A stretch of DNA of 64,000 nt, from positions 1 to 64,000 of the forward strand of contig JAAXIB010000038.1 in NCBI GenBank assembly GCA_012270585.1, read 5' to 3'. The position numbers and the translations under genes were made by a program. Shown piece by piece: positions 20,617 to 48,899 of this stretch (position 1 is its first letter; each line of letters starts with the position of its first letter). Below the pieces are notes generated by a model. The model saw only the letters and a program-made list of their open reading frames with translations. It did not search any database and was not told where the DNA came from. The stretch is from Nitrospirales bacterium (lineage in GTDB: Bacteria > Nitrospirota > Nitrospiria > Nitrospirales > UBA8639).

Positions 20617-20748
20617 CGGCAGGTTTGGAGATTCCGAAATTGATTTTGATGAGGGGTAGTAGACAAACGTCGATGCTCTGAGGGCCTTTACCCTCAATCC
20701 AAACGGCCTTCCAGACAAGGGATGCAATCATTATCAAAGGAGGGATTC

Positions 20749-21231
20749 ATGAAGCGGTTTGTAGCGATTTGTAGTTTGTTGACGGCATTTGCCTTTGTCG
20801 GTGGCGATTTGGCCTTTGCCGGAGCCGAAAAAGACCCGTTGAAGCCACGGGTTCCGAAGGCTGAGCGCGGGAAGGCCAAGAAAACCAAACCACCCGCCGA
20901 GTTGTACAAGAAAACGAAAAAGGCCTCCGACGAGATTGTTGCCGAAGGCAAGAAGATTTTTGAAGGAAAAGGTACCTGCGTCAATTGTCACGGGAAAAAG
21001 GGAGACGGCACCGGTCCGGCCGGAAAAGTGTTGAATCCCGGCCCGCGGAATTTTACCAATTGCAAATTCCACAAGAAACGGAAAGATGGTGAATTGTTCT
21101 GGATTATCAAGAACGGCAGCCCGGGGACCGGCATGGTGTCCATGGTGCCCGCGACCATTACGGAGGAAGAAGCGTGGAAGGTATTGGCCTACGAGCGAAG
21201 CTTCTGTAAGAAATGGCGCAAGAAGAAGTAG
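20749..21231 (+). CDS. Small periplasmic monohaem c-type cytochrome
   Basis: 160 residues. ATG 20749 follows an AAGGAGG Shine-Dalgarno (20737-20743), better than the in-frame ATG at 20722. Residues 1-24 are a signal peptide (ending FAGA). After a Lys-rich stretch comes one haem-attachment motif, CVNCH (77-81), in the context EGKGTCVNCHGKKGDG. A methionine in NGSPGTGMVSM is a candidate distal ligand. Two further cysteines (in FTNCKFH and RSFCK) are conserved in the tandem paralogue downstream. It probably acts as an electron carrier or a subunit of a periplasmic redox complex; no partner gene is adjacent. It has its own promoter and terminator, so it is likely monocistronic. Confidence 0.85.
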   Translation: MKRFVAICSLLTAFAFVGGDLAFAGAEKDPLKPRVPKAERGKAKKTKPPAELYKKTKKASDEIVAEGKKIFEGKGTCVNCHGKKGDGTGPAGKVLNPGPRNFTNCKFHKKRKDGELFWIIKNGSPGTGMVSMVPATITEEEAWKVLAYERSFCKKWRKKK

Positions 21232-21305: not shown

Positions 21306-21814
21306 GTGCAACTCTTCTCGCGAACTCTCTCATTCATATGCCCGGGCAGATGCCTGCTGGCCGTGAGTTTCGTTCTGATGATGGGGGGGGTAGTCCAACG
21401 CCCGGCTTGGCTGACGAAGTACAACCATTGCGGCCAAGGGTGCCCATGAGTGAAAGAATATGGGCCAGGAAATTGGTCCCGCCATTCGGTTCGACGAAAA
21501 CGGCTTCCGCCGAGATCATCGACCAAGGCAGAGTCCTGTATGAAGGGAAAGGTGCCTGTGTGTCGTGCCATGGGAAAGCCGGACGGGGAGATGGTCCGGT
21601 CGGCAGGCGCCTGAATCCCGGTCCTCGTAATTTCACCAATTGCAAATTCCACAAGAAACGGAAAGATGGCGAATTGTTTTGGATCATTAAGAACGGCAGT
21701 CCGGGGACCGGCATGGTGCCGATGATTCCAGTGACGATTACCGAAGAAGAGGCCTGGAAAATATTGGCCTATGAACGAAGTTTCTGCAAAGATTGGCAAC
21801 ATCGCGCACAGTGA
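21306..21814 (+). pseudogene. Second c-type cytochrome copy, frameshifted at a G8 tract
   Basis: Paralogue of the preceding cytochrome. The haem motif CVSCH and the block FTNCKFHKKRKDGELFWIIK are intact in the frame ending at TGA 21812. In that frame the sequence upstream (from ATG 21338) is not a signal peptide. In another frame, from GTG 21306, a typical signal peptide is encoded (CLLAVSFVLMMGG), which then runs out of frame. The two frames meet at eight consecutive G (21383-21390). Adding one G would join signal peptide and cytochrome (…MMGGGSPTPGLADEVQ…). It may be a pseudogene, a phase-variable gene, or a sequencing/assembly error in the homopolymer. There is no promoter between the upstream terminator and this gene. 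Without repair the product would lack export and haem attachment. Confidence 0.65.
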
Positions 21815-30369: not shown

Positions 30370-30800
30370 CTGGATGAGTCATTGATACGAATATAGCCCC
30401 ATTCTGTCACTTGTATGTGTTCAGTAATTCGTTGACAATTTTTGCCGTCTCCTTTTGTGCCCCAATTCCCCTCCTTTGTAAGGAGGGGCGTGGGGAGGTA
30501 GAGACGGTGACCAGGACGGCAACTCCCCATGCTTCTGGGACGGGTGGCTCTACCCCACCTCTCCTCCCCTTACAAAGGGGAGGAACCAACCGGCCCTGCT
30601 GTCTTTTGTGGTCGGCTCCGCATTTTGTCAACGAATTTACAATCCCGATTCCCCCTCTCCCCATCGTGGGAGAGGGCTGGGGTGAGGGGACAAAAGCAAA
30701 AAACCCTGGATCCTCGATTAAAAATGTCGAGGATGACAGAAGGAGAGGAGCCCATATACGGGTTGGCGGAGCGTAACCCGACAGGGGGGCCGGAGAACTG
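30370..30800. repeat. Composite block of dispersed palindromic repeats
   Basis: No gene. In order: 30406-30438, inverted copy of the TGTCAACGAATGACTGAAC motif; 30463-30592, left and right halves of the CCCCTCCTTTGTAAGGAGGGG / CTACCCCACC unit; 30626-30641, a shortened TGTCAACGAATTTACAA copy; 30650-30690, CCCCTCTCCCCATCGTGGGAGAGGG with GGGGTGAGGGG; 30705-30746, GGATCCTCGATTAAAAATGTCGAGGATGACAGAAGGAG; 30757-30784, GGGTTGGCGGAGCGTAACCCGACA. Bases 30541-30636 match 54801-54896 at 91 of 96 positions by my count. Confidence 0.75.
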
Positions 30801-36837: not shown

Positions 36838-37206
36838 CCCGGGTCAAAGCCCGGGACATGTCTTGTGCCGCCAAGAATGCGGGCACCAGCCTCCGTAGGT
36901 CGGGTTAGCCGCAGGCGTAACCCGACAACCTGCCGAACCTTCGGATTACGCTTCGCTAATCCGACCTACAACTCTGCGTTTCCAGGCGTTTGGCGGTTGA
37001 AACGACGAGATTCTTCGCCTCCGGCCCAGAATCTCTCATGCAGGCTTGCCGCCTGCACACCAAGGAATGAAAATGGGGATGCCTCTCCAATCTGTCATCC
37101 TCGACATTTTTAATCGAGGATCCAGGGTTTTTGTTTTGTTCTTCGTCTGTGAAGCCAAAAGACACTGGATTTCCGATTACTAACGTCGGGAATGACAAAA
37201 GGAGGT
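36838..37206. repeat. Block of dispersed repeats after the TonB receptor
   Basis: No gene. 36838-36858: CCCGGGTCAAAGCCCGGG. 36894-36928: GTAGGTCGGGTTAGCCGCAGGCGTAACCCGACA, and 36945-36970 a sister unit with ATTACGCTTCGCTAATCCGACCTAC; related copies lie at ~30760 and ~62155. 37020-37075: inverted copy of the GTGCAGGC...AGCCTGCATG unit of 27.4 kb. 37092-37130: TGTCATCCTCGACATTTTTAATCGAGGATCCAGGG, and 37164-37206: an inverted sister with ATGACAAAAGGAGG. Confidence 0.7.
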
Positions 37207-38597: not shown

Positions 38598-39011
38598 CTA
38601 CGACGCAGCCTTGTCCGGCTTGGTCGCAATCGCCATGTTGAAAATGCCGGCTTCTCTCACGGCATCCATGACCTCGATCACTTGACCGTGCGAGACGGCT
38701 TCATCGGCGTTGATCACCACCGCGGGTTTTTCCCCATAATACAGGAGATCGTGTAGCCGCAACTCGAGTTCCGAGATCGTGCAACTGTCTTTATTGAAAT
38801 AGAGATCGCCTTTACTGGAGATGGAGAGGGTGACTTGTTCGGGAAGATCATCCGTCGCGGAACTGGCCTTCGGCAAGTTCACTTCCATGCCTTTCTGTAG
38901 AGTCATGGACAATGTGGAGATCATGAAAAACACCAACAGAAAAAACATGGTGTCGATCATGGGAATAATCTCAATCCGGGCTTTTTTCTTGTCGCCAGCA
39001 GACAGCTTCAT
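38598..39011 (-). CDS. exbD: ExbD-type protein
   Basis: 137 residues. A cytoplasmic basic start leads to one membrane helix with the conserved aspartate (RIEIIPMIDTMFFLLVFFMI, residues ~13-35). A ~100-residue periplasmic domain follows (PEQVTLSISSKGDLYFNKD, AVVINADEAVSHGQVIEVMDAVREAG). With ExbB it uses the proton-motive force to drive TonB. It overlaps the exbB stop by 4 bp and is the last gene of the minus-strand TonB cluster. Confidence 0.88.
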   Translation of the reverse strand: MKLSAGDKKKARIEIIPMIDTMFFLLVFFMISTLSMTLQKGMEVNLPKASSATDDLPEQVTLSISSKGDLYFNKDSCTISELELRLHDLLYYGEKPAVVINADEAVSHGQVIEVMDAVREAGIFNMAIATKPDKAAS

Positions 39012-39634
39012 GATGCCACCTGTACGGCAGTGGCTTGCAGGGCCGCCTCATTGCGCGTGGCATAGTGCTCGATCTGTTCGGTGATGCCTTCCGCGCGAGC
39101 CAGGAAGTAGTTGTAGGGGATGAGGGCCAGCACGGCAACAGTAATGCCGCCGGCCGTACAGATGAGCGCTTCGGCGACTCCGCCGGTGACGGCATGCGGG
39201 GAGCCCATACCTTCAATGGCCATGATGCCGAAGGAATCAATCATCCCGATGATGGTACCCAACAACCCCAACAACGGGGCGAGCGTAATGATGGTGTCCA
39301 ACGACGGAAAGCCTCGTTTCATGCGGCTCACCTCGACCAGGCCCGTGGCTTCCATGGCCTTCTCCGGAGCGGAGGCGCGCGAGCGAATGCCCGATGCCAG
39401 CACCCGAAACACGGGATGCTGGATCTGCTCGCTGAGAGAGAGCGCGTCGTCGAATTTTCCCTGGGCGACCAACTCGATCATCTCATCGGCTTTCCCGGAG
39501 GAGGGGAGCTTGTAAAAAAACCATCCTCGTTCAAGAATAATGGCCAAGGCCACCAGCGAACACAGGATGATGGGAAGCATGAGCAATCCGCCGGCCATCA
39601 GGACTTTGATGAAAGCAAATGACATGTCAATCAT
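39008..39634 (-). CDS. exbB: ExbB-type proton channel protein
   Basis: 208 residues with three membrane helices (~10-32; ~105-130, TIITLAPLLGLLGTIIGMIDSF; ~145-170, GVAEALICTAGGITVAVLALIPYNYF). Forms the pentameric stator with ExbD. Together with tonB (29 bp upstream) and exbD (4-bp overlap) it forms a dedicated TonB energising set. Compared with the TolQ in this window it lacks the longer loop, and its neighbours identify it as ExbB. Confidence 0.88.
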   Translation of the reverse strand: MIDMSFAFIKVLMAGGLLMLPIILCSLVALAIILERGWFFYKLPSSGKADEMIELVAQGKFDDALSLSEQIQHPVFRVLASGIRSRASAPEKAMEATGLVEVSRMKRGFPSLDTIITLAPLLGLLGTIIGMIDSFGIMAIEGMGSPHAVTGGVAEALICTAGGITVAVLALIPYNYFLARAEGITEQIEHYATRNEAALQATAVQVAS

Positions 39635-39663: not shown

Positions 39664-40569
39664 TTAGCTTTGTTTGCTCAAAGAAAACTTGAGGGGAATG
39701 ACCACGACGCTACGAATGGGGATGTTCCCGTCCCGTGCGGGACGGAAAGCCCATTTTCTGATTGCTTGAATCGCTGCGTCATCCAAAACTTTATGTCCGC
39801 TGCTTCGTGACACGTCAACCTTGCTGGCCCTGCCGTTGGCCTCAACCGTCACGCGAACGAGCACCGTCCCTTCCCACCCGGACTTTTTGGCGATCCGTGG
39901 ATAGATCGGATGAACGGAGCGTAACACCCCGACGCTGGTCGTGGCTTGAGCTTCGCCGCGAGTGGCCTGCAGGGTTCTCCTTCCGCGGCCGGGAGTCGTT
40001 GGCGGTAAAGACGAGCGTACGACGTGCCGCCGGTTTGCGGCTCCTTGCAAGGCGGCGACGGTCGAAACCCCGGGAACGAACATCGATGGTGCCTCGGCAA
40101 CCTTGGTTGTCGTTTTGGTGGTGGTTTTGCGTGACGCGGTTTTAGTCAGGGTGCGTGCTTTTAAGGTGTCCGTGGCACGGTTATCCTGAAGGACTCGTCG
40201 TTTCATAGGCTGGGGGGGCGGTTGTTGGGGCGGCGGCGCCGAGACGACCTTGGGCATCTCGACCGGTTGAGAAATGTCCGGCGGTGTCGGCGTAGGCTGA
40301 ACCTGTTTCCGTTGGATCGGCTGCGGTTGCAGCCGTTGAGCCTGGAGCATGGGCGGGGCCTGGGGCTCAGGTTCGGGTTGGGGTGGTTCGGGCGCCGGGA
40401 CTTCAACGAAGGTGACCTTGACCGTCGGCGGGGGTTTTTCCACTTGGAGAGAAAAATGCACGAAACTGACGAACACGAAAAAGAGAACGTGCAATACAAG
40501 GGACCACGTCCCGAATCGCAGAAAGGACGAATCCTGGTCGAGTTCATTCATGGAGGCGACGTGGTTCAC
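39664..40569 (-). CDS. tonB: TonB energy-transducing protein
   Basis: 301 residues. N-terminal membrane helix (~22-41, WSLVLHVLFFVFVSFVHFSL, with the histidine typical of TonB/TolA anchors). A Pro/Gln/Pro-Glu-rich periplasmic region follows (~45-115), then a basic middle and the C-terminal TonB domain (~215-301: SVHPIYPRIAKKSGWEGTVLVRVTVEANGRASKVDVSRSSG, KWAFRPARDGN). It carries energy from ExbB-ExbD to outer-membrane receptors by binding their TonB box. The start ATG overlaps the stop of the TPR gene by 4 bp. The nearby receptor at 41.7-44.3 kb is the natural client. Confidence 0.9.
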   Translation of the reverse strand: MNHVASMNELDQDSSFLRFGTWSLVLHVLFFVFVSFVHFSLQVEKPPPTVKVTFVEVPAPEPPQPEPEPQAPPMLQAQRLQPQPIQRKQVQPTPTPPDISQPVEMPKVVSAPPPQQPPPQPMKRRVLQDNRATDTLKARTLTKTASRKTTTKTTTKVAEAPSMFVPGVSTVAALQGAANRRHVVRSSLPPTTPGRGRRTLQATRGEAQATTSVGVLRSVHPIYPRIAKKSGWEGTVLVRVTVEANGRASKVDVSRSSGHKVLDDAAIQAIRKWAFRPARDGNIPIRSVVVIPLKFSLSKQS

Positions 40570-41621
40570 GACCCGACTTTTTTCAGCAGTTTTCGCACCC
40601 GGTCGTCCTGGCCGCCGAGTTCGATGTATTTACGGTATTGTTCGAGGGCTTTCGTCGTATCCTTGCGGTGAAACTCGTAGAAGACCCCCAGGTTGTAATA
40701 GCCTTCGACCAGCTTCGGGTTCAACTTCAGGGCGGCCAGATAGGCCTGCTCGGCTTCATCGAGCTTGTCGAGGTTCGCCAGGAGCACGCCCAGGTTGAGT
40801 TGCGCTTCAGCGTGCTTCGGATTCAGACGGACCACCTCCTGGAAGTGGTTCACCGCTTGTTTCGGTTGGTCCTGGGCCTGCATGAGATACCCCAGGGCGT
40901 AATGGGCCTCAAGCAGGTCAGGTGAGATTTTCAAGGCCTTTTGGTACGCCTCGATCGCCTGCGTCTCGCGTAGGGCCTTTTCGGACAACTGGGCCAGCAG
41001 GAGCCAGGCATTGGCGTCCTGGGGGTCCAGGCTCGTCAATTTTTCCAGTTGCTTCGTGGCCTGGTCCGTGTCGCCCTGCATATCGTAGAGAGTCGCCAGG
41101 TTATACCGGGCGGTGAGTTGTTTGGGCTCCAGTTTCAGCACGGCCTGGTAGGCACTAATGGCCTGTTCGCGTTCATCCAGTTGGTCATAGGTAAACGCCA
41201 GGTTCAGTTGCGCATCGGCAAAGCGCGGATAAATCTTGATGGCTTTCTTGAAAACCTTCTTGGCTGCCTCCAGATTTTTCTGATCTCGATAGATCAACCC
41301 GAGTTCCATATAGGCGCTGGCGAAATTGGGGTGCAACTCAACGGCTTTTTTCAGGTGGGCGACGGCTTGGTCGGGTTGCTGCAAGCCTCTAGACGAGACG
41401 ACTCCCAGCAGATGATGCGCGGCTGCAAAACGAGGAAACACTTTCAAGGCTTGTTGCAGTGATTTGGCGGCTTGCTGGAACTCTCCATTATTAAAGTGAA
41501 TCGCGCCTTGGTTAAACAAGGTTTGGGCTTCATCCGCGGCCAGGCTTGTGAGAGGAGGGGTAAGGCCCAGCGTGAGGCCCAGGACACCGATGGACATGAT
41601 TCGCAACAGTTGTCTGTTCAT
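40566..41621 (-). CDS. Exported TPR-repeat protein in TonB cluster
   Basis: 351 residues from ATG 41621 (MNRQLLRIMS); the longer open frame to 41720 runs into a palindromic repeat and is not coding. A signal peptide ends SLAADE. About nine TPR repeats of 34 residues follow, unusually regular (for example AHHLLGVVSSRGLQQPDQAVAHLKKAVELHP, AQLNLAFTYDQLDEREQAISAYQAVLKLEP). Probably a periplasmic scaffold. Translational coupling to tonB and position directly after a TonB receptor suggest a role in assembling or serving that receptor; similar TPR-TonB pairs occur elsewhere, but the function is not established. Confidence 0.82.
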   Translation of the reverse strand: MNRQLLRIMSIGVLGLTLGLTPPLTSLAADEAQTLFNQGAIHFNNGEFQQAAKSLQQALKVFPRFAAAHHLLGVVSSRGLQQPDQAVAHLKKAVELHPNFASAYMELGLIYRDQKNLEAAKKVFKKAIKIYPRFADAQLNLAFTYDQLDEREQAISAYQAVLKLEPKQLTARYNLATLYDMQGDTDQATKQLEKLTSLDPQDANAWLLLAQLSEKALRETQAIEAYQKALKISPDLLEAHYALGYLMQAQDQPKQAVNHFQEVVRLNPKHAEAQLNLGVLLANLDKLDEAEQAYLAALKLNPKLVEGYYNLGVFYEFHRKDTTKALEQYRKYIELGGQDDRVRKLLKKVGS

Positions 41622-41638
41622 AACGCCTCTATGTTCTC

Positions 41639-41683
41639 TTTCTCCCTCTCCACCACGAGGGAGAGGGCCGGGGTGAGGGGGTG
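41639..41683. repeat. Palindromic intergenic repeat
   Basis: CCCTCTCCACCACGAGGGAGAGGG followed by CCGGGGTGAGGGG, same family as at ~23030, ~30650 and ~48150. It lies between the receptor gene and the TPR gene of the minus-strand cluster and could act as a hairpin in their mRNA. Confidence 0.65.
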
Positions 41684-41709
41684 AGTAAAGTGAGCGTGTG
41701 TCAAGGTGG

Positions 41710-44286
41710 TTAGAATGCATACAACGCCCTCAGGTAATAGAATCCACCGTTGAATCCATAGGGAGAATACTCGGGATATTTCGTGCCTGCCGCCCCACTG
41801 GTTCGGTCCGGTACCGCGTCGAACAGGTTTTGCGCCCCTCCTGCGATCGTCAGCCCGGTTTTCATGGTATACGAAGCTTCCAGATCCGCGAGCAGCCGTG
41901 AACTGGCGTCTATACGTGCGTCAGGGTCGTCCGTTGTAAACTCGGTAAAGCTGTCGTAGTAGTAGAGCCGGCCCAGGAACCGCCAGGGCCCCTCTCTGTA
42001 GTCGCCCGTCAGGGTGACCCGGAAATTCGGCAGAAGTTGTTCCAACTCGGTCACCCGCTGATCGTTGATGATCTCCGGATCACGCTCGGTCACCTGGGTG
42101 TCATTCCAGTTGCCCGCCAACGTCCAGAGGATGTTTCCGCCGCCCATCTGCACCGGGTAGGTCGCCACGAGGTCGATGCCCTGCGTGGTCGTATCAAACG
42201 CGTTGGTGTAGAATTTCACGCTCGTGACGTCGCTAAAACCATAATCTCGCAAGACAGCTTTGTCCGTCTCATCCAAATCCTGGTTGCTCCCCAGTGAGAT
42301 GCGGTCCTGTACCTTGATCCGGTAGTAATCGACGGTCACGGACAGGTTCCCCACGTCCAGCACCGTGCCCGCGGACAGGTTGAAGGATTTTTCCGGCTTC
42401 AGTTGCTGAGCACCGTGCTTGGCCGGCACTCCACTCGGATGAGTCGGCGGCAGGGCGAGTCGGTCAGCGAGCGCTCCGGCGACGAATGCCGTGGTCACGT
42501 TTTGAAGGTTCGCTTGTCCCACGGTCGGGGCACGGAAACCCGTGCTGATCGAACCGCGAAGCGCCATGAAGGGCGTGGCTTGCCAACGGGTGTCCAACTT
42601 GCCGTTCGTGGTGTCTCCAAAGGTTTCGTATTCCTCAAACCGTCCGGCCACACCGACCAGCAGGTCCTTGGACACGTTGGTTTCCAAATCGAGATAGGCA
42701 GCGTAGCTGCCCCGGTTGTTTGCCCCCGCGATCCTGGGCGGGCGTCCGGGGAATCCATTGGATCCGACGCCGAATCCCTGCTCCGCAAGACCTCCACTGC
42801 TGTCGTCAATATACCAGGAATTCTCCCCGCCGGCTTCGATCTCGTATTCCTCTATTCGATACTCCAGGCCGAGGCCGACGTTCAGGGGCGAGGGTAACAT
42901 GGCGGTCTGCAGGACCCTGGACAGGTCCAGGTTGAATACGCGATCTCTCTCTATGTCGGCACCAGGATTGTAATTCGTCGGAATATCGGTTCTCAGTCCG
43001 GCGAGCTGCGGATTGATGGTGTTGGTCATGAAATAGTCAGTGCTGTGGTGCCCGAACACGGCACTGAGATCATAGTGCCAGTCGTCCAGCCAGGGATTGT
43101 CGCTGGACAGGTCCCCGCGGATACCCACTGCTCCACTCCAGTCGCGCACCGTCCCTCCGAACGTCGGGGTGAATCCGCCTGGGAACTTCTCGTTGAACAT
43201 GAAGCAGTGATCGGGAAGTGTCGCGATAACATCAGAATAGTCGGCCGCATTGTTCGCCGGTACGACAGGGCAGTTCCCTTGGGTCGGGTCGAGGTTCGCG
43301 ACCCTTACTGTAGGACCACCATTGACCTCCTCCCCTTTGAATACTCCACCGCGCGTATTCGGGTTGCGGAAGTAGAACCCGCCTTCTATTTTGCGTTGGG
43401 CAAAGTTGCCCCAGCCGTAGAGTTCGGCTTTGCTGTTCAGTTTCATGCCGAAGTTCCCGAAGAGTTTGTAGTCATAGTGAAACTCGGGTGCGCCCCAGAC
43501 CTGGGCGTGGGGTTGCCGCACGTACTTGTTGCCCGCGTCAATCAGTGCCTGCGCATCGGTGCGTTGGATGCTGCGATCGGTCGGATCGGATGCTCCATAT
43601 TCGAAGCTGAAGTTGGCAAACCCGGACTGGACGAACGGGAGTGGCAGGGGCACGCCCAGGTTGCCCGCAATATTGCGGGACTGGCCGTCTCCCAGATAGA
43701 ACTGACCCCAGCGGGCTTCCACCGTCCCGCTGTCGGGGGCGTCTTTCAACACGAAATTCATCACACCGGCCACGGCGTCGGACCCGTACTGCGCCGCCGC
43801 GCCGTCGCGCAGGATTTCCACGCGCTTGAGGGCAATGGCCGGGATTGCAGCCAGATCAACCGCGTGCGCCCCGTCTGAAATGCCGCCGCCCAGGAGGCTG
43901 ATGACGGAAGACCGGTGACGCCGTTTGCCGTTGACCAGAACCAGGGTGGAGTCGGGGGGCAGGCCACGCAGGTTTGCCGGGCGCACCAGCGTGGCGGCAT
44001 CGCCGATGGGTTGCTGGTTCACGTTGTAGGACGGCACGGTGGCCCTCAGGAGGGAGTCCAAGTCCCTGACCCCATAGTTCCTGAACGATTTCCCTTCCAG
44101 CACGTCAACCGGAACCGGAGAATCATGGGCCGAGCGACTCGGAACACGGGACCCGACCACGATCACTTCTTCGAGTTTGACAACGTCCGTGTCCTGACCT
44201 GCGGCTTCCTGTGCAAGAGATTGTTGAATCGGAATAGCCAACAGGCACAACAGTATCATAGAAGGAATTATTCGATGATGGTTCAT
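41710..44286 (-). CDS. TonB-dependent outer-membrane receptor, large type
   Basis: 858 residues. ATG 44286 follows AAGGAG eight bases upstream. Signal peptide ends SLAQEA. TonB box EEVIVVGSR, then the plug (NYGVRDLDSLLRATVPSYNV, RPANLRGLPPDSTLVLVNGKRRHRSS, VEILRDGAAAQYGSDAVAGVMNFVLK) and a large barrel ending GFYYLRALYAF. The SVIS-GGGISDGAHAVDLAAIP stretch is typical of a group of large receptors seen in Proteobacteria and environmental bacteria whose ligands (plant or microbial carbon compounds, peptides or chelates) are mostly unknown. It sits in a minus-strand cluster with a TonB-like protein upstream and TPR, tonB, exbB and exbD downstream. Confidence 0.88.
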   Translation of the reverse strand: MNHHRIIPSMILLCLLAIPIQQSLAQEAAGQDTDVVKLEEVIVVGSRVPSRSAHDSPVPVDVLEGKSFRNYGVRDLDSLLRATVPSYNVNQQPIGDAATLVRPANLRGLPPDSTLVLVNGKRRHRSSVISLLGGGISDGAHAVDLAAIPAIALKRVEILRDGAAAQYGSDAVAGVMNFVLKDAPDSGTVEARWGQFYLGDGQSRNIAGNLGVPLPLPFVQSGFANFSFEYGASDPTDRSIQRTDAQALIDAGNKYVRQPHAQVWGAPEFHYDYKLFGNFGMKLNSKAELYGWGNFAQRKIEGGFYFRNPNTRGGVFKGEEVNGGPTVRVANLDPTQGNCPVVPANNAADYSDVIATLPDHCFMFNEKFPGGFTPTFGGTVRDWSGAVGIRGDLSSDNPWLDDWHYDLSAVFGHHSTDYFMTNTINPQLAGLRTDIPTNYNPGADIERDRVFNLDLSRVLQTAMLPSPLNVGLGLEYRIEEYEIEAGGENSWYIDDSSGGLAEQGFGVGSNGFPGRPPRIAGANNRGSYAAYLDLETNVSKDLLVGVAGRFEEYETFGDTTNGKLDTRWQATPFMALRGSISTGFRAPTVGQANLQNVTTAFVAGALADRLALPPTHPSGVPAKHGAQQLKPEKSFNLSAGTVLDVGNLSVTVDYYRIKVQDRISLGSNQDLDETDKAVLRDYGFSDVTSVKFYTNAFDTTTQGIDLVATYPVQMGGGNILWTLAGNWNDTQVTERDPEIINDQRVTELEQLLPNFRVTLTGDYREGPWRFLGRLYYYDSFTEFTTDDPDARIDASSRLLADLEASYTMKTGLTIAGGAQNLFDAVPDRTSGAAGTKYPEYSPYGFNGGFYYLRALYAF

Positions 44287-44331
44287 AAGCGGGTCTCCTT
44301 GGGTGTGCTATTCAGCGATTCTTGTCTCCTA

Positions 44332-45087
44332 TTATTTGTTATATTCCTCAAGGTCGAATCTGATGGGCAGGTCGACCGCGGTGGAAATGGGAAATTCTCC
44401 ATCTTTCGCCGGATCGAATCGCCACGTTTTGACTGACTGCGCGGCGCTCTCGTCAAGCGCGGGAAATCCCGAGCTTGTTTGAGTCGTGACGTTTTCCACG
44501 TCCCCGCCGGCACCGATGGTGATTCGTAACACGACCGTGCCTTCCCAGCCCTCCCGGCGAGCCGCTTGCGGATACAGGGGACGTTCGGATTTGATCAGCC
44601 TGACGGTTTTCCGAAGTCCTTGGCGGTCCGCAATGGAATCCCGCATGAGTTGAGACCTGTCTTGCGACACGATAGAGTTTTTGGGGATCGTGGCGACCAT
44701 GAAGCCGGTGAACGGCACGATTTTCGCGACGTCGGGTTCGGCCAGGCTGATGAGGCGTTCTGTCTGGATCATTGTTCTGACCGATTTCCACAGTCCTTGG
44801 CGGTCCGCAATGGAATCCCGCATGAGTTGAGACCTGTCTTGCGACACGATAGAGTTTTTGGGGATCGTGGCGCCCATGAGGCCGCTCAACGGCACCAACG
44901 TCAGGGTATCGGGTTTGGGTATACTGATTTCCCGCTCTTCTTCAACGGCGAGAGCGGGAATTTCGATGGTCTCCAGGAACTCGATTGGTTGATCCGGCAA
45001 GCCCTGTGCCCCCGCGGGAGGACAGACGACACACCCCAGTAACGGCACAAGAACTGCCCCCATAACCTTTGAAAATGCGGAAGCCAT
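44332..45087 (-). CDS. Exported TonB-C-domain protein with internal duplication
   Basis: 251 residues from ATG 45087 (an ATG at 45120 is also in frame). The N-terminal hydrophobic segment (VMGAVLVPLLGCVVCPPAGAQG) can be a signal peptide, or with LLGC a weak lipobox. Two copies of a 59-residue unit follow, containing ATIPKNSIVSQDRSQLMRDS and then IADRQGL (residues ~75-135 and ~134-190). The C-terminal ~85 residues are a TonB-type domain (RPLYPQAARREGWEGTVVLRI, SVKTWRFDPAKDGEFPI). There is no long Pro-rich linker, so it is unlikely to reach the outer membrane like TonB. It may instead be periplasmic and modulate the receptor encoded 45 bp downstream. Confidence 0.75.
   Translation of the reverse strand: MASAFSKVMGAVLVPLLGCVVCPPAGAQGLPDQPIEFLETIEIPALAVEEEREISIPKPDTLTLVPLSGLMGATIPKNSIVSQDRSQLMRDSIADRQGLWKSVRTMIQTERLISLAEPDVAKIVPFTGFMVATIPKNSIVSQDRSQLMRDSIADRQGLRKTVRLIKSERPLYPQAARREGWEGTVVLRITIGAGGDVENVTTQTSSGFPALDESAAQSVKTWRFDPAKDGEFPISTAVDLPIRFDLEEYNK
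44615..44872 (-). repeat. Exact 81-bp direct repeat inside the TonB-like gene
   Basis: 44615-44695 and 44792-44872 are identical over 81 bp by direct reading, 177 bp (59 codons) apart, in frame. The surrounding sequence of each 177-bp unit is diverged, so the identical core points to recent gene conversion or strong constraint. Confidence 0.9.
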
Positions 45088-45348
45088 TTTGTTGGTTTTC
45101 TGGATCGTGTATGCGGGCAACGGCCTGGCTTTTAATTCGGTCGTAAGTATAGCATATGCAGAAAAGAGATTTAAACCTCCTGCCTACGTAGTAGTTGCTA
45201 CCAGGCCGGTTGTCTTCTTTCAATCAGGGGTTCGATTCATGAACCCATTCAGGTATACTAGGTGAAAAGGCGTTCTGCCCCGAGGGATTCCTTCTGTCCG
45301 GGGAACCCTCAAGATTACATTCGTTTCTCCAGAGGTATTGACCCCATC
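45088..45348. other. Divergent spacer between TonB cluster and secA
   Basis: About 260 bp. It holds the minus-strand promoter and, for secA, a TATACT at 45254-45259 without a convincing -35. No dispersed repeat is seen. Confidence 0.5.
45146..45174 (-). promoter_or_regulatory. Extended -10 promoter for the TonB cluster
   Basis: On the minus strand TGCTATACT (45146-45154) gives an extended -10 (TG then TATACT), with a weak TTTAAT -35 17 bp upstream (45169-45174). The start would be ~45139, ~50 nt before ATG 45087. Confidence 0.45.
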
Positions 45349-48072
45349 ATGTTCGTGAGACTGCTCAACCTGTTGTTCGGAAGCAAAAACGATCGTGAGT
45401 TGAAGGTGCTTCAACCCATTGTCGCGCGGATTAACGAATTGGAACCCGGCTTGCAGGCGCTTTCGGACGAGGCGCTGGCGGATCAGACCCAGGCGTTCAA
45501 AAAGCGTCTCGACGCAGGCGAAACGCTGGACGAGTTGCTCCCCGAAGCCTTTGCCGTGTGCCGGGAGGCCTCACGGCGAAAAATCGGACTGCGCCACTTC
45601 GACGTCCAACTCGTGGGCGGCATGGTGTTGCACGCGGGGAAAATTTCGGAAATGAAGACCGGCGAGGGAAAGACGCTGGTCGCCACCCTGCCCATGTACT
45701 TGAACGCCTTGGCGGGCAAAGGCGCGCACTTGGTGACGGTCAATGACTACCTGGCGAAACGTGACGCGCAATGGATGGGCCCCGTGTATCACGCGTTGGG
45801 TTGCACCGTCGGCGTGATCCAGCATGAATCCTCGTTCCTGTTCGATCCCGAATACGAGGCAACGGATAAACGGTTGAACCACCTGCGTCCCTGTACGAGA
45901 CCCGAAGCCTATCGTGCCGACATCACGTACGGCACCAACAACGAGTTCGGGTTCGATTACCTTCGGGACAATCTGGTCATCAATGACCTGCGCCAGCGAG
46001 TCCAACGGGAGTTGTCGTACGCGATCGTGGACGAGGTGGACAGCATCCTGATCGATGAAGCGCGCACGCCGCTCATCATCTCCGGTCCGGCCGAACAGAG
46101 CACGGAACTCTACAACCGGATCAACCGGCTCATTCCCAGGCTCACCGCCGAACGGGACTATACCATCGAGGAAAAATCAAGGACGGTGGCGCTGACGGAA
46201 GAAGGGAACGCCCGCGCGGAAAAATTGCTGGCCGGGGAGGGCCTGCTGGCGGGCGACAACCTGTATGACCCGAAAAATCTCGACGTGGTGCACCACGTCA
46301 TCAAAGCCTTGCAGGCCCATGCCATTTATAAACGCGACGTGGACTACGTGGTCAAGGAAGGCGAAGTGCAAATCGTCGACGAGTTTACGGGACGCCTGAT
46401 GCCGGGCCGGCGGTGGAGCGACGGGTTGCACCAGGCGGTCGAAGCCAAGGAGGGCGTGAAAATCGCCAACGAAAATCAGACCCTGGCGTCCATCACGTTC
46501 CAGAACTATTTTCGGATGTACGACAAACTGGCGGGAATGACCGGAACCGCGGATACGGAAGCCGCGGAGTTTGCCAAGATCTACAACCTGGACGTCAACG
46601 TGATTCCGACCAACCGGGCGATGGTTCGCCAGGATCATTCGGACGTGGTGTATCGCACGGAGAAGGAAAAATTCGAGGCGATCGCCCAGGAAGTCCTGGA
46701 CTATCACGAGCGGGGCCAGCCCGTGCTGGTGGGCACGATTTCAATTGAAAAGTCGGAGCGACTCTCCAAAATTCTCAAGCAACGAGGCGTGAAACACCAC
46801 GTCCTGAACGCCAAGTTTCATGAAAAGGAAGCGGAGATCATTTCCCAGGCCGGGGGCAAGGGCGGGGTGACGTTGGCCACCAACATGGCCGGTCGGGGAA
46901 CGGATATTATTCTGGGCGGCAACCCGGATGCCTTGTACAAGCAGCAGGTGGTCTACCGGGGTGAAGACCTGACTGATGAACAGAAACAGGCGGCGTTTGA
47001 ACGGATTCAACGGCAATGCGAAACGGAAAAGGGGGAAGTCCTGCGATTGGGCGGGTTGCATATCGTCGGCACCGAGCGCCATGAGAGTCGCCGGATCGAC
47101 AACCAGCTTCGAGGCCGGTCCGGTCGCCAGGGCGACCCGGGGTCGTCCCGGTTCTTTTTATCCCTGGAAGACGATCTGATGCGCATTTTTGCGTCCGAGC
47201 GGGTCTCCAACCTGATGTTGAAGCTGGGGATGGAAGAAGGCGTGCCGATCGAGCACCGGATGGTCACCAAGTCCATTGAGAACGCCCAGAAGAAAGTCGA
47301 AGCTCATAATTTCGACATCCGGAAACACATTCTCGAATACGATGACGTCATGAACAAACAGCGGGAAATCATCTATGCCCATCGAGCCGGCGTCCTTGGG
47401 GGCAGTTCCATTCAGGAGGACGCGGAGGATTGGCTCGTGGACGTGGTGGACGCCTCGATCAACACCCACTGCCCGGAAGAAGTCTATGCCGAAGCCTGGG
47501 ACCTGGCTGGACTGCGTGAAGCCGCCCTCGCGCAATTCGGCACGGAAATCCTGGCGACCGGGGACATGGCGGACATGGGGCGGGACGGCCTGCGGGACGA
47601 ATTGCTGGAACACGTCCAGCAACTCTTCAGGCAAAGACAACGGGAGCGCGAAGAGCAAATCGGTCCCGAGCTTCGCTCGCAGCTTGAACGGAGCCTGGTG
47701 TTGCAGGTCATCGATCATCATTGGAAGGAGCATCTTCTGGGCATGGATCAGCTCCGGGACGGCATCGGGCTCAGGGGCTATGGCCAGAAAGATCCCCTGG
47801 CGGAATATAAACGGGAAGGCTTCGACATGTTTGCCGCCATGATGGACCGCATCAAGTCCGATGCCCTTGAGCGGCTGTTTAAAGTCCAGGTCGTCAAAGG
47901 GGAGCGCCCGCCCATTGAAGAAGATGCGGCCCTGCCTCCCCCTATGATCTTCAACCGTGGAGATGGTGAATCCGCGCCACGGCCGGTCCAACGGTCCCAG
48001 GCAAAAGTCGGCCGAAACGAGCCCTGCCCATGCGGCAGCGGCAAGAAATATAAAAAATGTCACGGGATGTAA
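45349..48072 (+). CDS. secA: Preprotein translocase ATPase SecA
   Basis: 907 residues from ATG 45349 (AGAGG upstream). The motor that pushes unfolded preproteins through SecYEG. Blocks in order: [35 protein letters not shown] (Walker A), [52 protein letters not shown] (DEAD-type Walker B), [21 protein letters not shown] and [31 protein letters not shown], then the scaffold helices. The C-terminal zinc-binding tail [17 protein letters not shown] binds SecB or lipids. Length and order are canonical. A frame extension upstream to 45262 is not supported by a ribosome-binding site. Confidence 0.97.
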
Positions 48073-48254: not shown

Positions 48255-48899
48255 ATGATGTCTCTGCATTTGGATCTTCTTTCCCCTGCTCAACGCCGAT
48301 TGTGGGATGAACTTGGTGACGTCCCTCCACAATTTACGCTGTACGGTGGTACCGCCATTGCCTTGTATCTAGGACACCGGAAATCAATAGATTTCGATTT
48401 CTTTGGCTCCGAGTCCTTCGATCCTCAACGACTCTATGCGGCTGTCCCGTTTTTGAAAGGGGCTAAAATCGTTCAGCAGGCACCCAATACCCTGACCTGT
48501 CTGGTTGATCGGGACGGGAACGTGCAGGTCTCGTTTTTTGGAGTGCCGAACATGGTGGTTCTCCGTGAACCCTTGCAGTTCCCGGACAACGGGATCCGAA
48601 TTGCCTCACTCATCGACTTGGCCGGCATGAAAGCAGCGGTGGTACAACAGCGGGCCGAAGCCAAAGATTACTTGGATCTTCACGCACTCATAAACCAGGA
48701 AGCGGTAGACCTGCCTATGGCATTGGCGGCGGCAAACCGAATCTATTCGGATTCTTTTCAATCTCAATTGACCTTGAAAGCTCTCACGTATTTCGGCGAT
48801 GGTGATTTACACACTCTGCCTGATTCAGTCAGGTTGGGGTTAGTAGAGTCGGTCCGCGCTGTCGATTTGAATCGTTTGCCTAATCCCGGGAACTCGTGA
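48255..48899 (+). CDS. AbiEii/AbiGii-type nucleotidyltransferase
   Basis: 214 residues (ATG 48255 or 48258). The nucleotidyltransferase core is visible: FTLYGGTAIALYLGHRKSIDFDFF gives the GG...hxDxD signature, followed by the short strand with VQVSFFG (third acidic position replaced here by polar residues) and the helical tail MKAAVVQQRAEAKDYLDLHALI typical of AbiEii. Such proteins act as toxins that modify tRNA or other targets in AbiE-like abortive infection and toxin-antitoxin pairs; solitary members are of unknown function. A small gene follows 49 bp downstream on the same strand, likely its partner. Confidence 0.82.
   Translation: MMSLHLDLLSPAQRRLWDELGDVPPQFTLYGGTAIALYLGHRKSIDFDFFGSESFDPQRLYAAVPFLKGAKIVQQAPNTLTCLVDRDGNVQVSFFGVPNMVVLREPLQFPDNGIRIASLIDLAGMKAAVVQQRAEAKDYLDLHALINQEAVDLPMALAAANRIYSDSFQSQLTLKALTYFGDGDLHTLPDSVRLGLVESVRAVDLNRLPNPGNS

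Follow-up and report, generated by a model that had tools for sequence, protein, structure and literature searches.

Gene conversion and concerted evolution between paralogous sequences of prokaryotes are treated in PMC6053082 and, for rRNA operons, in PMC8022953. In such systems, paralogs within one genome are more alike than orthologs over a limited tract that has diverged flanks. The locus described here has the same pattern, but its copies are adjacent units of a single gene, with one tract of ~81 bp in one species. The gene encodes a protein that resembles the TonB energy transducers in having a C-terminal domain above the curated cut-offs (PF03544, TIGR01352), a long linker before this domain, and ExbB/ExbD-family genes nearby on the same strand. 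In contrast to those transducers, its N terminus looks by eye like a cleavable signal peptide and not a membrane anchor, and a separate TonB with an anchor-like segment is encoded in the same gene run. A proline-rich spacer is described for most TonBs in PMC9022066; the linker here is instead a duplicated unit and by eye is no such spacer. The protein also matches the profile of the myxochelin receptor MxcH (NF038079), over the N-terminal profile positions 3-87 of 792 only. This partial match suggests that in MxcH a TonB-type domain is joined to a receptor, whereas the two are encoded by adjacent genes here. The match reaches 42.8 bits against a cut-off of 925, and the gene has no receptor barrel. 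No title or abstract opening found in our literature search describes this case, which is not to say that the literature lacks it.

A predicted periplasmic TonB-domain protein with two linker units

The gene lies within the window, the whole 64,000-nucleotide stretch of DNA that was analyzed, and has the following features:

44332-45087, minus strand: predicted secreted TonB C-terminal-domain protein, 251 aa (domain searches, ortholog comparison)
45004-45087, minus strand: signal-peptide-like N terminus, MASAF...PAGAQ (by eye)
44767-44943, minus strand: linker unit 1, 59 codons (unit comparison; low-confidence model)
44792-44872, minus strand: 81-bp tract in unit 1, probable conversion donor (direction not significant)
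44590-44766, minus strand: linker unit 2, 59 codons (unit comparison; low-confidence model)
44615-44695, minus strand: 81-bp tract in unit 2, probable acceptor (direction not significant)
44350-44583, minus strand: TonB C-terminal domain (PF03544), single copy (Pfam, E 3.4e-22)

The open reading frame list places the start at an upstream TTG (45120), but comparison with orthologs makes the ATG at 45087 likelier. The C-terminal domain scores 79.1 bits against PF03544 (curated cut-off 24.6) and 74.8 bits against TIGR01352 (curated cut-off 27.1), and solved TonB domains representing 12 distinct sequences match the same C-terminal part (best E 3.9e-7). Pfam detected this domain alone, at the end of the protein, and no domain in either linker unit. 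An AlphaFold2 model of the protein, built from an alignment of 7 sequences, has a mean pLDDT of 50.2. Averaged in blocks of 10, the pLDDT is 35-43 in unit 1 and 36-49 in unit 2, where a low-confidence helix stands at the end. Most of the TonB domain has values of 64-82. The low values in the units are consistent with a flexible spacer and, given the 7-sequence alignment, are no proof of disorder. Overall, the protein looks like a signal peptide followed by a pair of linker units, each of 59 residues, and a single C-terminal TonB domain, and it is predicted to reside in the periplasm.

An exact 81-bp repeat in diverged units

The sequence-only reading had reported an exact in-frame repeat within diverged 177-bp units, and this was confirmed: positions 44615-44695 equal positions 44792-44872 at an offset of 177, with both copies in frame within the one minus-strand gene (44332-45087, 251 codons). 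Mismatches between unit 1 and unit 2 occur at 38 of the 177 positions, all of them in the 96 positions outside the tract, where 81 of 81 bases are identical; the identity thus extends to every synonymous position of the 81 bases, as had also been claimed. When the 38 mismatches were placed at random over the 177 positions, a run of at least 81 arose in 0 of 200,000 shuffles, and the expectation of an 81-bp match is ~1e-39 if bases are independent. The 64-kb window has one other exact direct repeat of 30 bp or longer, and that second repeat is shorter. The run consists of 26 whole codons with one base before and two after. In the 27-codon frame used for tests, which contains 20.0 synonymous sites, 80 of 81 bases are identical, and the sole difference, at the last base, is synonymous and ends the identical run.

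The two units are old

A full-length or nearly full-length ortholog was found in 11 of the 14 genomes of the genus, including the genome under study. The ortholog of G008 is truncated at the edge of a contig, and the only matches in G002 and G007 by eye resemble ordinary TonB. The six named relative loci are from Nitrospirales or Nitrospira MAGs. Some TonB-domain match exists in 40 of 41 near genomes (own included), many of these being ordinary TonB. In a draw of 61 genomes from the phylum, in which the family of the window had no further representative, two matched a homolog from another genus used as query (L014, E 1e-15), one of them the window's own.

Both units are present in all 11 orthologs of the genus, with unit 1 shortened by loss of its core in L011, and 15 homologs from other genera have by eye one unit. 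Their number, which had been thought liable to vary between strains, is constant between species at two in 11/11 orthologs. In the window, the longest word common to both units has 81 bp and the units are 79% identical. The corresponding word has 8-23 bp in the ten other orthologs, whose units are 75% identical in the outgroup L013 and 54-69% identical in the remaining nine. The unit pair is therefore old, and its duplication precedes the homogenization. The fairly high similarity of the L013 units was counted against a conversion reading.

Tract and flank trees conflict

Trees were built from 20 units of 10 species, with L011 omitted because the core of its unit 1 is deleted. In the flank tree, all copies of unit 1 stand apart from all copies of unit 2 (support 97), and the two window units follow this division. 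The tract tree joins both window copies and unit 1 of L004-L006 in a single clade, the support of 99 being that of the whole clade. Approximately unbiased (AU) tests rejected grouping the tract of the window's unit 2 with its orthologs (p 0.022, a moderate value from a short alignment of 27 codons) and, for the flanks, grouping the two window copies together (p 0.0023). The window copies have a dS of 0.69 from each other in the flanks and of zero over the 81 bp, and the tract dS between the units of a gene is 0.30-0.96 in the four other species compared. The conflict between the trees, observed as directly as the identity and the age of the duplication, indicates that a stretch of one unit was overwritten with sequence from the other, and the 81-bp identity is very probably a gene-conversion tract.

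A rival explanation is that the unit was duplicated in tandem only recently, within this genome, and that its flanks then diverged quickly. The one point in its favor is the high identity of the middle. However, both the presence of the pair in 11/11 orthologs and the affiliation of each unit's flanks with its own orthologs, with the flank support and AU value given above, argue so strongly against it that we give it almost no weight. The same grouping of the flanks counts against an error of the draft assembler, which during repeat resolution may have overwritten the tract of one unit with that of the other. The genome is a draft of 89 contigs, and 81 bp is close to a common assembly k-mer size, which we counted in favor of such an error. 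On the other side, the two-unit layout recurs in 10 other genomes, so the duplication is real, and the locus is interior to a contig of 83,913 bases. Collapse of a repeat would also be expected to delete a unit and not to rewrite 81 bp, and on balance an assembly error appears distinctly unlikely.

If conversion is the explanation, it probably ran from unit 1 into unit 2, although this direction is not significant: it is favored by 2.5 log units, and the alternative pairing with unit 2 orthologs has an AU p of 0.27. In three relatives, 9 single-base sites distinguish unit 1 from unit 2; the copies in the window agree with unit 1 at 5 of them and with unit 2 at 3, and differ from both at 1. A 2-residue insert in the relatives' unit 2 was considered as proof of direction and dropped; it is not diagnostic because the outgroup L013 also lacks it.

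Synonymous conservation does not indicate added constraint

Identity at all synonymous positions could also be maintained by a constraint on the nucleic acid, such as an RNA structure, an overlapping gene, or a binding site, which the sequence-only reading had offered as its other explanation. An antisense open reading frame of 158 codons (44566-45042) spans both tracts, and a stop-free antisense frame covers the units in 10 of 11 species. Yet the two tracts differ from each other in all 10 other species, and synonymous conservation between species, examined as that reading had proposed, is lower in the tract than in the flanks for unit 1 and about equal for unit 2. Among codons for the same amino acid, those identical number 457/706 in the tract and 629/769 in the flanks of unit 1, and 587/803 and 640/906, respectively, in unit 2 (10 species; pairwise and therefore non-independent comparisons). 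The predicted RNA fold of the 81-mer is ordinary (z -0.41, with 59 of 200 shuffles at least as stable), and Rfam gave no match at gathering score in 43500-46000. Synonymous conservation, RNA folding, and Rfam thus all speak against the proposed constraint, which we regard as very improbable.

Age of the event

The 26 whole codons of the run contain ~18.7 synonymous sites with zero differences, so dS is below ~0.16 at 95% by the rule of three, and the true limit is looser because the tract was picked for its identity. For SecA, the closest of the six species compared lies at a dS of 0.28. Given similar rates, the conversion is probably younger than the split from that species. Of the earlier proposal of a very recent conversion, the conversion itself is upheld by the conflict between tract and flank trees, and "very recent" is bounded weakly, by this upper limit on dS.

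TonB domain number and the position of the genome

Two TonB domains connected through a PEPEP linker are present in nine of the 11 orthologs (L004-L012), with the Pfam check made on L004 only, and the window gene and L013 have one. These nine orthologs led us to consider loss of a second domain by recombination, as did the bases that follow the stop codon of the window gene, which are similar to the end of two-domain orthologs; this similarity fits either history. The clade of second domains excludes the window's domain (support 99 for nucleotides and 100 for protein), and the window's domain has the base of L013 at 13 of 17 diagnostic sites; the domain trees do not resolve how it is placed with respect to the first domains. 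From the clade and the diagnostic sites, retention of an ancestral single domain that predates the domain duplication appears to fit better than a loss.

In a tree of SecA from 17 genomes, the genome under study falls together with G001 and G006 (support 86). A tree of the receptor encoded next to the TonB-domain gene (41710-44286), from 11 genomes, places it outside nine other members of the genus (support 100). The receptor may therefore have a different history. Because the two trees put the genome in different positions, the locus has had no simple history, a point weighed against the conversion reading.

The gene heads a Ton gene run

The TonB-domain gene comes first in a run that continues with receptor, TPR, TonB, ExbB-family, and ExbD-family genes, with SecA on the other side:

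45262-48072, plus strand: SecA, divergent neighbor, kept near the locus in relatives
41710-44286, minus strand: TonB-dependent receptor, next gene on the same strand (plug and barrel domains, Pfam)
40566-41720, minus strand: TPR protein (Pfam)
39664-40569, minus strand: TonB with N-terminal membrane-anchor-like segment (domain searches; anchor by eye)
39008-39634, minus strand: ExbB/TolQ-family protein (profile match below curated cut-offs)
38598-39011, minus strand: ExbD/TolR-family protein (profile match below curated cut-offs)

Neighborhoods were compared across 19 stretches. Six from other genera keep the order SecA, TonB-domain gene, TPR, TonB, with no receptor match of this type between those genes. 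Within the genus, the receptor adjoins the TonB-domain gene in all 11 stretches that have the gene, and TPR follows the receptor in 8 of these, the contig ending within the receptor in L039, L047, and L049. Two of the 11 (L040 and L044) end before SecA, and in L046 a gap containing another receptor separates SecA from the TonB-domain gene. L050 (G002) has SecA, TPR, and TonB without the TonB-domain gene, and L051 (G007) has a TonB-type match only. Beside SecA in the window is an AbiEii-type nucleotidyltransferase gene (48255-48899, E 4e-15), and a gene of this type is also SecA-adjacent in L043, L045, and L048.

A TonB-box-like segment near the N terminus

Receptors of these genomes have segments such as VETLDPVVVTAT after their signal peptides, and homologs of the window protein in other genera have VETLDTIEVPAT or VQQLDEVEVTAS at the corresponding N-terminal place. 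The best place in the window protein is:

44953-44985, minus strand: TonB-box-like segment IEFLETIEIPA, degenerate in the genus (PSSM best place; shuffled p = 0.25)

The segment is clearer in the homologs from other genera than in the window. The position-specific scoring matrix (PSSM) was made from the 27 of 30 receptors that fit a chosen pattern (23 distinct), with L067, L072, and L080 dropped as non-fitting. Its best hit falls at the N-terminal place in 13 of 15 homologs outside the genus and 7 of 11 inside, with a shuffled p of at most 0.05 in 8/15 and 0/11, respectively, among homologs that are not independent. Of four controls picked by eye as ordinary TonB, one of which (L022) is cut at its start, one reached p 0.024, elsewhere in its sequence. 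Because 25 of the 26 homologs score below the lowest-scoring receptor, the TonB-box resemblance remains a lead. That the gene belongs to a secreted periplasmic family, present in several families of this order, that combines an N-terminal TonB-box-like segment with a TonB C-terminal domain and acts as a relay is a speculative and unlikely reading.

Other repeats in the window

A near-palindromic 42-bp element occurs in inverted copies at 30699-30740 and 37091-37132. With at most 3 mismatches allowed, the 28-base core matches the genome 91 times (45 and 46 by strand), compared with 0 for a reversed control, and the element resembles REP-type interspersed elements. Two neighboring genes that encode CxxCH motifs (20722-21231 and 21338-21814), cytochrome-c-like by eye, have a 35-bp exact run in common and 76% identity over 300 bp, and are possibly another case of local conversion.

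Mechanism and implications

We propose that homologous recombination between the two units, in the lineage of this genome, copied a tract of ~81 bp, probably from unit 1 to unit 2, and left the flanks untouched. The route would be conversion of the RecA type. The units most likely serve as a flexible spacer that sets the periplasmic reach of the TonB domain, and if they do, homogenizing them would cost little.

The tract is a real but ordinary gene conversion between old tandem linker units. It offers a clean example of conversion between units of one gene, and comparisons made at the level of units in such linkers can be misled by conversion. A predicted secreted TonB-domain protein heading a Ton gene run would matter only if the TonB-box resemblance proves functional. 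Were the relay to be true, the protein would be pulled by TonB and would in turn grip a receptor, lengthening or multiplying the reach of TonB, and the duplicated linker, together with the second TonB domain of nine relatives, would represent tuning of the relay.
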